Source: Omnitrophica WOR_2 bacterium RIFCSPHIGHO2_02_FULL_50_17 (GTDB taxonomy: Bacteria > Omnitrophota > Gorgyraeia > Zapsychrales > Zapsychraceae). From it: 43,906 bases of DNA. The notes beneath the pieces are model-generated. The model saw only the letters and a list, made by a program, of their open reading frames with translations, was not told the DNA's origin and did no database searches. Below, piece after piece: positions 5,360 through 8,237 of the stretch; the stretch's first letter is position 1, and every line of letters begins with the position of its first letter. Location: assembly GCA_001805645.1 (NCBI GenBank), contig MHGQ01000057.1, positions 1 through 43,906 of the forward strand, written 5' to 3'. The position numbers were made by a program, and so were the translations under genes.

Positions 5360-5959
5360 CTAACGGCCGTGGCCGGGAGGACTGATGCGCGTGGTCAAGG
5401 TATGCTCGGGGTTATTGACAGGGTGCGCCGGATTGCCGCTGTCATACCGGCTTGTCAGCGTAATCTCTATGTAGTCCAGCCGGCCGTCGCTGTCGTTGAC
5501 AATGTTAAAAAAATCGATATCAGATAGAAAACTAAATTGCCGGACATCCGTGGCCCCCGTAGTGCACTGATTATCGTTTTGTGGAGGAACGGCTGCAGGA
5601 TTATCACAGCGCTTCAAGACATCGTCGGGAGGGCCGTAACAATAACACACCCATGTGTCATCCGCATAGGAAACAGGATTATTTGTATCATGCCGGAAAC
5701 AAATACTGCGATCCTGTCCTGTACTGGAAGTCCGAATGCCCCGCGAGGAAGAATCGCCCACCGCCAGCAGGGCATCTCTGCGGATATAATTTATGGCCCC
5801 CCCCAGCCGCATCGAGAGAAGAGCCGATCTGTTGGTTGCCCCCTGAATCTGCTTGACAACAAAACTGAAGGAGGCTATCCCTATCATCACAATCCCAATC
5901 AATATGGATGCGACCAACAGCTCGGTAAAGGTAAGTCCGTTTTTGGAATTGGAACACAT
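5360..5959 (-). CDS. PilW/GspJ-like minor pseudopilin
   Basis: A 199-residue type IV pilin-like protein. A short leader MCSNSKNG precedes the prepilin peptidase site and a hydrophobic helix, LTFTELLVASILIGIVMIGI, with glutamate at mature position 5; the +1 residue is Leu rather than Phe. The C-terminal part has several cysteines and no motif I recognise. Length and position, last in a row of five pilin genes, suit a minor pseudopilin at the pilus tip. It starts 19 bases after the preceding gene. Confidence 0.8.
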   Translation of the reverse strand: MCSNSKNGLTFTELLVASILIGIVMIGIASFSFVVKQIQGATNRSALLSMRLGGAINYIRRDALLAVGDSSSRGIRTSSTGQDRSICFRHDTNNPVSYADDTWVCYCYGPPDDVLKRCDNPAAVPPQNDNQCTTGATDVRQFSFLSDIDFFNIVNDSDGRLDYIEITLTSRYDSGNPAHPVNNPEHTLTTRISPPGHGR

Positions 5960-7969: not shown

Positions 7970-8003
7970 AAAAAAAATGCCTATTCTACACCCGTAGAAT
8001 AGG
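7970..8003 (-). terminator. Intrinsic terminator of the riboswitch leader
   Basis: On the minus strand CCTATTCTAC-GGGT-GTAGAATAGG forms a perfect 10-bp stem with a 4-base loop, followed by CA and eight T residues. It lies 28 bases after the aptamer and 173 bases before the pilin ATG, as expected for a transcriptional expression platform. Confidence 0.88.
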
Positions 8004-8031: not shown

Positions 8032-8158
8032 GGCAGCTGGCTATCCTTTACAGGACCCTTCCCCGACGTTTCGCCTTTGGCGGAAGTCGGGGTCCCGACT
8101 TCCAGCTTCGCTGGAACGTCGGGATAGCTTTGTGTCCTACCCTTACGAGCAGTTTACC
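8032..8158 (-). promoter_or_regulatory. Class I cyclic-di-GMP (GEMM-I) riboswitch aptamer with enlarged P3
   Basis: On the minus strand GGTAAACTGCTCGTAAGGGTAGGACACAAAGC matches the GEMM-I core: AAAC, then helix CTGCTC/GGGTAG capped by the GNRA loop GTAA, then GACACAAAGC (consensus GACGCAAAGC). P3 is closed by GCTATCC (8128-8122) and GGATAGC (8046-8040), and the 3' side GGATAGCCAGCTGCC matches the consensus GGUAGCCGGGUUGCC. P1 pairs GGTA with TGCC. The base aligned with G20 of the Vibrio Vc2 aptamer is G, which favours c-di-GMP over cGAMP. P3 holds two extra hairpins at 8061-8123. Sequence between 8238 and 8379 shows nothing recognisable. Confidence 0.85.
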
Positions 8159-8208
8159 TTTTTCAATAACAAACTGTTATTGAAACTCAAATTGACTATT
8201 CTACGGAA

Positions 8209-8237
8209 TGTATAGCATATAAAAAGAGCGGTGTCAA
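8209..8237 (-). promoter_or_regulatory. Promoter of the riboswitch-pilin transcript
   Basis: On the minus strand: TTGACA, a 17-base spacer and TATACA, with a TG one base before the -10 hexamer (extended -10). The predicted start is near 8202. A hairpin CAATAAC-N5-GTTATTG (8164-8182) lies between the start and the aptamer. Confidence 0.8.

Follow-up and report, generated by a model that had tools for sequence, protein, structure and literature searches.

In the Cd1 riboswitch of C. difficile (flgB), a class I (GEMM-I) aptamer and a terminator can coexist and compete with a ligand-free antiterminator, and the switch is OFF (PMC9262584, accessible parts). There, the exchange proceeds via strand A, which stabilizes the aptamer, and the controlled genes are flagellar, whereas in the locus analyzed here, the terminator arm targets the P2 hairpin with its loop and the downstream gene encodes a pilin. 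The same report, in its accessible parts, describes a GEMM-I RNA that precedes type IV pilus genes, at pilM of Geobacter metallireducens; this RNA likewise acts on transcription but binds cGAMP, is an ON switch and employs a strand of the aptamer itself as part of the terminator, so that the two folds are mutually exclusive. A major pilin gene, pilA1 of C. difficile, is controlled at the level of transcription read-through by the c-di-GMP riboswitch Cdi-2-4, which, however, is a class II RNA with the ON sign, opposite to the OFF sign predicted here (PMC6200980, accessible parts). Finally, strand-exchange riboswitches, as outlined in the accessible parts of PMC10907184, use an invading strand and a toehold, and the ligand blocks the exchange by stabilizing a helix; unlike in these systems generally, the toehold in the present locus is apparently the ligand pocket, and the invaded helix is a peripheral hairpin with its tetraloop.

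The GEMM-I class itself is well known, and Cd1 relies on the same logic, using a different strand. As far as searched, the P2-directed platform, its spread in this order of Omnitrophota and a second leader element appear to be new. No P2-directed GEMM-I platform was found in the accessible literature, a search that left subscription papers mostly outside and does not establish absence from print, and no paper was found that names both Omnitrophota and cyclic di-GMP.

The pilin locus and its leader

The window, that is, the whole stretch of 43,906 nucleotides that was analyzed, is a contig (C57) of an Omnitrophota MAG (1.92 Mb, 92.8% complete). On its minus strand, a promoter, a GEMM-I aptamer, a terminator and a second structured stretch follow one another ahead of a type IV pilin gene that begins 226 nt beyond the 3' end of the aptamer. 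Genes for a PilC-like and a PilB-like protein, a secretin, and PilO-like and PilM-like proteins are located upstream. The features are as follows.

11570-9828, minus strand: pilB-like assembly ATPase with an N-terminal MshEN domain (PF00437, 3.4e-135; PF05157, 6.3e-18)
9639-8380, minus strand: pilC-like platform protein (T2SSF), the upstream neighbor (PF00482, 1e-54)
8237-8209, minus strand: sigma-70-like promoter, TTGACA (8237-8232), 17-nt spacer, TATACA (8214-8209), from the sequence
8174-8022, minus strand: GEMM-I (c-di-GMP-I) aptamer, from the RF01051 match and helix pairing
8174-8164 / 8032-8022, minus strand: P1, GUUUGUUAUUG/CAAUAAUAAAU, 11 pairs
8158-8152, minus strand: core GGUAAAC, GEMM-I junction letters
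8157-8156 / 8133-8132, minus strand: P1b, aptamer helix
8152-8147 / 8142-8137, minus strand: P2, aptamer hairpin with GUAA loop (8146-8143)
8150-8136, minus strand: GCUCGUAAGGGUAGG, part of P2 targeted by the terminator arm (last bases of the 5' strand with the loop and the 3' strand), from the free fold and covariation
8136-8127, minus strand: GACACAAAGC, junction strand of the aptamer core
8128-8122 / 8046-8040, minus strand: P3, GCTATCC/GGATAGC, 7 pairs
8121-8047, minus strand: P3 insert, separating the two strands of the helix and based on a palindromic repeat
8010-8006, minus strand: UGUGU, candidate toehold for ACACA 8135-8131 (covering the A47 equivalent), from the unconstrained minimum-energy fold
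8004-7979, minus strand: intrinsic terminator hairpin GCCUAUUCUAC[GGGU]GUAGAAUAGGC, -17.7 kcal/mol
7977-7970, minus strand: U tract of the terminator (T8), from the sequence
7963-7871, minus strand: second structured leader element, a three-way junction between terminator and pilin, from folding and model R1
7796-7377, minus strand: type IV pilin gene (139 aa), presumed to be regulated (PF07963, N_methyl, 2.2e-8; PF16732, 1.9e-6)

A preliminary description of this DNA had named a class I aptamer, a TTGACA-17-TATACA promoter, an intrinsic terminator and a canonical pilin gene. All are recovered: both promoter hexamers lie where listed, the terminator hairpin and its T8 tract are found between the aptamer and the pilin start codon, although farther downstream than the interval given there, and the pilin ORF combines the N_methyl match with a KSGFTLLE motif. 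That description gave no switch direction and overlooked the expression platform and the second RNA element. A promoter similar by eye precedes most of the homologous loci. Given the usual spacing between -10 and +1, the start site is expected near 8204-8201.

The GEMM-I aptamer and its P3 insert

Judged by every sequence feature examined, the element in the window is a member of the GEMM-I class. The scan with the Rfam covariance model that had been suggested as a check gives a significant match to RF01051 (cmscan; score 42.2 bits, cut-off 35; whole-window E 4.9e-5), aligned to 8168-8098 (-). The alignment places the 3' half too early, at 8098 within the insert, because of the long insert in P3; the actual 3' strand of the aptamer is GGATAGCCAGCTGCC, at 8046-8032 (-), as already named in the earlier description. 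P1, P2 with a GNRA loop (GUAA), P3 and the junction letters GGNAAAC and GRCNCAAAGC are all present; the consensus C-G pair 22/45 is U22-A45 in the window according to the Rfam alignment. The Vc2 numbering of G20, A47 and C92 is presumed here to correspond to 8158, 8131 and about 8033, a mapping made with the Rfam consensus. By alignment, equivalents of all three are present (G8158, A8131 and about C8033); these are the names of ligand-contact residues in the accessible parts of PMC9049102. The RNA from 8209 to 7969 folds at a z-score of -6.8 compared with dinucleotide shuffles. In the minimum-energy fold, a strong hairpin at 8185-8161 (-) sequesters the 5' strand of P1; by eye, its presence in relatives is inconsistent.

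The repeat on which the P3 insert is built, CCCGACGTT...AAGTCGGGA at 8123-8093 (-), recurs in the genome in the form CCCGACGTT...GTCGGGA. A pattern search yields five matches in the genome, the one in the window included, with the others at C68:1441-1471, C61:7453-7483, C49:124349-124379 and C77:16790-16816. Two of the five, in the window and on C68 (locus L006), are inside P3 of GEMM-I aptamers. The C61 match, inspected by eye, seems to be inserted in a coding sequence. Similar P3 inserts are present in two homologous loci, L036 and L053.

Recurrence in Omnitrophota

All 20 loci in the first set of PilC relatives come from Candidatus Omnitrophota or Omnitrophica, and in 11 of them RF01051 scores over the cut-off on the PilC strand. 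In L038 and L048, the RF01051 match precedes a second pilin gene farther down. L036 and L053, with their long P3 inserts, contain the exact core by pattern though no RF01051 match exceeds the cut-off; the copies in L041 and L051 are damaged, and neither RF01051 nor the pattern reveals a recognizable aptamer at the PilC loci L037, L043, L045, L046 and L047. The distance from the core to the pilin motif is 227-486 nt in the 13 intact-core loci examined. Among 49 further PilC loci of the order, the core lies ahead of a pilin in 22 (pattern, read by eye), 12 of which are repeats of first-set loci; 19 loci are the same records as first-set loci, and each was used once. At the genome level, an RF01051 match is found in all 37 genomes (this one and 36 relatives; 2 to 14 matches each) and exceeds the cut-off in 36. 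All six matches in the genome under study are over the cut-off, and three of these (window, L003, L006) are followed by a pilin or pseudopilin gene. Comparison of these sequences shows that the order promoter, aptamer, terminator, pilin recurs at many, but not all, homologous Omnitrophota loci, which supports the link between aptamer and pilin proposed in the preliminary description.

Altogether, 28 pilin-linked loci were collected, including two further copies from the same genome, and 27 were tested; L108 was dropped because the script took a wrong hairpin as its terminator, and the degenerate copies L041 and L051 were retained.

A terminator arm antisense to P2

The 5' arm of the terminator is antisense to the aptamer's own P2 hairpin, including the tetraloop, so that, as in an attenuator, the alternative pairing (P2:arm) shares letters with the terminator. 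In free partial transcripts that start at 8203 and stop at 7990 or 7986, bases 8150-8136 of P2 are paired with the arm (8003-7990); with the 3' end at 7994, the leader still holds the arm. The complementarity covaries among loci. Across the 27 loci, the P2 x arm duplex energy is -17.63 kcal/mol for own arms compared with -14.75 (sd 0.45) for swapped ones, a value reached in 0 of 20,000 permutations (z -6.4), and the signal persists when only distinct P2 and distinct arm sequences are used (z -5.8, n=22). Control tests on the P1 and P3 regions of these 27 loci are flat (z -0.2 and +0.7). In the 20 loci that could be aligned in one register, seven pairs with the P2 strand hold in 19 or all 20 loci, and the six loop-side pairs hold in 17, 16, 18, 11, 13 and 12.

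The arm also tracks the tetraloop: GTAA loops are accompanied by the arm triplet TAC in 14 of 17 loci, GCAA loops by TGC in 3 of 4 (4 of 23 among the others) and GTGA loops by CAC in 3 of 4 (1 of 23 among the others), the matching triplet being absent in the GCAA locus L096 and the GTGA locus L102. We know of no other reason for the letters of the tetraloop to follow the terminator. The pairing is weak in L098 (-6.8 kcal/mol), L041 (-9.2) and L087 (-12.9). Immediately ahead of the arm, where the candidate toehold is located in the window, GTG is found in 16 of the 27 loci against a background of 11%. At the level of sequence, then, the terminator arm is shown to be antisense to P2 and to covary with it across the pilin loci.

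The other GEMM-I loci of the order show a weak signal as a whole (z -1.8, 751 of 20,000); this test, in which 22 of 32 loci were kept (7 yielded no core and 3 no terminator), is rough because the cores assigned to L012 and L015 seem to be incorrect. Strong P2:arm pairing is seen in L009, L010, L016 and L034, and weaker pairing in L024 and L027. Judging from ORFs read by eye, L024 and L034 are also pilin loci, whereas the genes after L009, L010 and L027 encode small proteins that appear to be secreted. Another copy in the genome under study, L002 on C52, has its aptamer (1501-1643) ahead of a gene that by eye resembles the rsmE methyltransferase; here, the sequence directly before a T run, CTTTATCGGCT, is the complement of AGCCGATAAAG in the 5' strand of the aptamer, which may mean that this copy is wired the opposite way.

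The likely ligand

An A at position 20 marks the GEMM-Ib riboswitches that respond to cGAMP, and in the GGDEF family, a Ser in the GHxxGS motif marks the cGAMP-making Hypr enzymes, with Asp marking ordinary diguanylate cyclases. Position 20 is G in the window and in 26 of the 28 pilin-linked loci overall (C in L044 and T in L041) and A in none; among the 25 loci parsable by pattern, 24 have U-A as pair 22/45. The genome encodes nine GGDEF matches, of which six have GHxxGD, with the canonical Asp, at the expected place; L075 fits only at the GGDEF-like letters, L074 and L076 do not fit at all, and the Hypr-type GHxxGS is absent from all nine. Because of the G at position 20 and the canonical Asp in place of Ser, c-di-GMP rather than cGAMP is expected to be the ligand of the window aptamer, in agreement with the earlier proposal. 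These same letters make it very improbable that the RNA senses cGAMP as a GEMM-Ib element, as in Geobacter, even though the association of GEMM-I with pilus genes is a Geobacter theme (PMC9262584, accessible parts) and A does occupy position 20 in 2 of 35 order-wide GEMM-I loci, 26 of which are readable by pattern. The two, L018 (genome G023) and L019 (genome G013), are candidate cGAMP sensors in this order.

The MshEN domain of the PilB-like ATPase was compared, by eye, with the relaxed c-di-GMP-binding pattern given in the accessible parts of PMC5013675: motif I fits, but motif II breaks the pattern at one Gly. A second c-di-GMP control point at PilB is therefore possible but doubtful.

The second leader element and other leaders

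The second element assumes the same overall shape when folded singly in the window, L036, L037, L038, L053 and L132 (z -1.9 to -7.5). In the alignment, 92.5% of the cells pair, compared with 39-48% for slid versions; covariation is modest, with three pairs changed on both sides, a level reached by 14 of 500 shuffles. Model R1 matches 7 of the 81 genomes of the order, and all six strong matches lie ahead of a pilin; the seventh (G013, E 0.005) was left out of the six because it is weak and no pilin motif was found in the stretch examined. The conserved loops are GGNNATATACG and GGANNN(NN)ATAC, and a search of Rfam at a relaxed threshold gave no match beyond chance. The most likely reading of the element is a 5' UTR domain, specific to this lineage, with a role in protecting or tuning the pilin mRNA; it is also possible that it is a second sensor.

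Of these six genomes, which include the one under study, two (at L037 and L132) keep the promoter and the second element, but no GEMM-I is recognizable between promoter and pilin. Together with the repeat-derived insert that enlarges P3, this would suit a relic, in which a genuine aptamer no longer matters and pilin expression has become independent of the ligand through the insert and a fixed attenuator. We regard such decay as improbable for the window, where the pocket letters, the closing pairs of P1, P2 and P3 and the P2:arm pairing are all intact.

Other leaders contain additional motifs between terminator and pilin. L039 (about 5560-5760) and L040 share, by eye, a tandem duplicated motif, GG-ATAC--GTGACA-ATAAC-GTAA-CA-A-C, that looks like another structured leader, and L049, L050, L054 and L055 share a motif resembling AACCC-CAACCCTGAAAGGAGTGATG.

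Proposed mechanism and probable sign of the switch

The reading that we favor, with a probability of roughly 0.6, is that the GEMM-I c-di-GMP riboswitch is a transcription attenuator of the type IV pilin gene that functions as an OFF switch via invasion of P2. In the ligand-free RNA, UGUG ahead of the terminator would pair with CACA of the binding pocket and nucleate the exchange as a toehold; the 5' arm of the terminator would then zip into P2, opening the hairpin, and the 3' arm would arrive too late. With its 5' arm held in P2 and thus unable to pair with the 3' arm, the terminator would fail and the polymerase would read into the pilin gene. Binding of c-di-GMP would close both the pocket and P2 to invasion, leaving the arm free, so that the terminator would form and transcription would stop; high c-di-GMP would therefore lower pilin transcription. 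This OFF sign is probable; we infer the sign, the order of events and the ligand alike.

In restrained folding with 7 nt of the 3' arm out, terminator occupancy rises on locking P2 in 14 of 27 loci, changes by no more than 0.1 in 13 and falls in none; since a locked P2 can have no other effect than to release the arm, this asymmetry is partly built in. Once complete, the terminator prevails whether or not the aptamer is locked, for 5' ends at 8203 or 8202 and likewise in nearly all loci, L083 excepted; the switch must therefore be kinetic. For the complete RNA with the 5' end at 8206, the aptamer combined with the leader pairing P0 (-81.3) and the aptamer combined with the terminator (-81.4) are equal in energy, so that equilibrium folding cannot decide the sign.

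An ON switch would result if the 5' end of the RNA, CCGUAGAAUAG (8206-8196), paired with the 5' arm of the terminator (8002-7992) outside a closed P1: c-di-GMP would close P1, bring leader and arm together and block termination. Leader and arm share 11 exact complementary bases, and when the bases between -10 and +1 are counted, the leader x arm energy is -9.02 compared with -7.12 for swapped combinations (z -4.5, 1 of 20,000; with slightly shorter arms, -8.41 compared with -6.18, 0 of 20,000). This signal, however, fades with the span, to z -2.8 from -2 and +0.5 from +1 (non-redundant, -0.1), so that it either does not reflect RNA pairing or requires an unusually early start site; a start about 7 nt after the -10 element would leave most of the leader strand outside the RNA. 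At least 7 contiguous pairs are present in 14 of 27 loci but also in 26% of swapped combinations. In folding of transcripts with 5' ends at 8203 or 8202 and 3' ends at 7991-7986, the leader pairing is at 0.002-0.22 in the free RNA and reaches 0.85-0.91 when the aptamer is forced, but for the same 5' ends the complete terminator displaces it. For RNA that begins at 8206 and includes the whole terminator, the leader pairing rises from 0.51 free to 0.66 with the aptamer forced, and the terminator drops from 0.48 to 0.30. With most of the leader strand upstream of the position where transcription probably starts, the ON model is the weaker one, and we consider it unlikely. The P0 leader antiterminator, which passed a swap test, was the model first preferred and was demoted when its in-RNA part alone proved to be without signal. 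The bases between -10 and +1, though probably untranscribed, match the arm of their own locus above swapped arms (z -2.3 alone).

Returning to the OFF switch via P2 invasion, a broader version, to which we give somewhat less than even odds, is that a GEMM-I platform in which the terminator is antisense to P2 and the ligand pocket doubles as the toehold is widespread in Omnitrophota and shuts off pilin transcription at high c-di-GMP. With such a toehold, the ligand would directly shield the nucleation site of the antiterminator, and this wiring would be a further route by which terminators are coupled to GEMM-I aptamers. The leader would offer a direct handle on how these cells set pilus production, and an OFF sign would assign this pilus to the state of low c-di-GMP.
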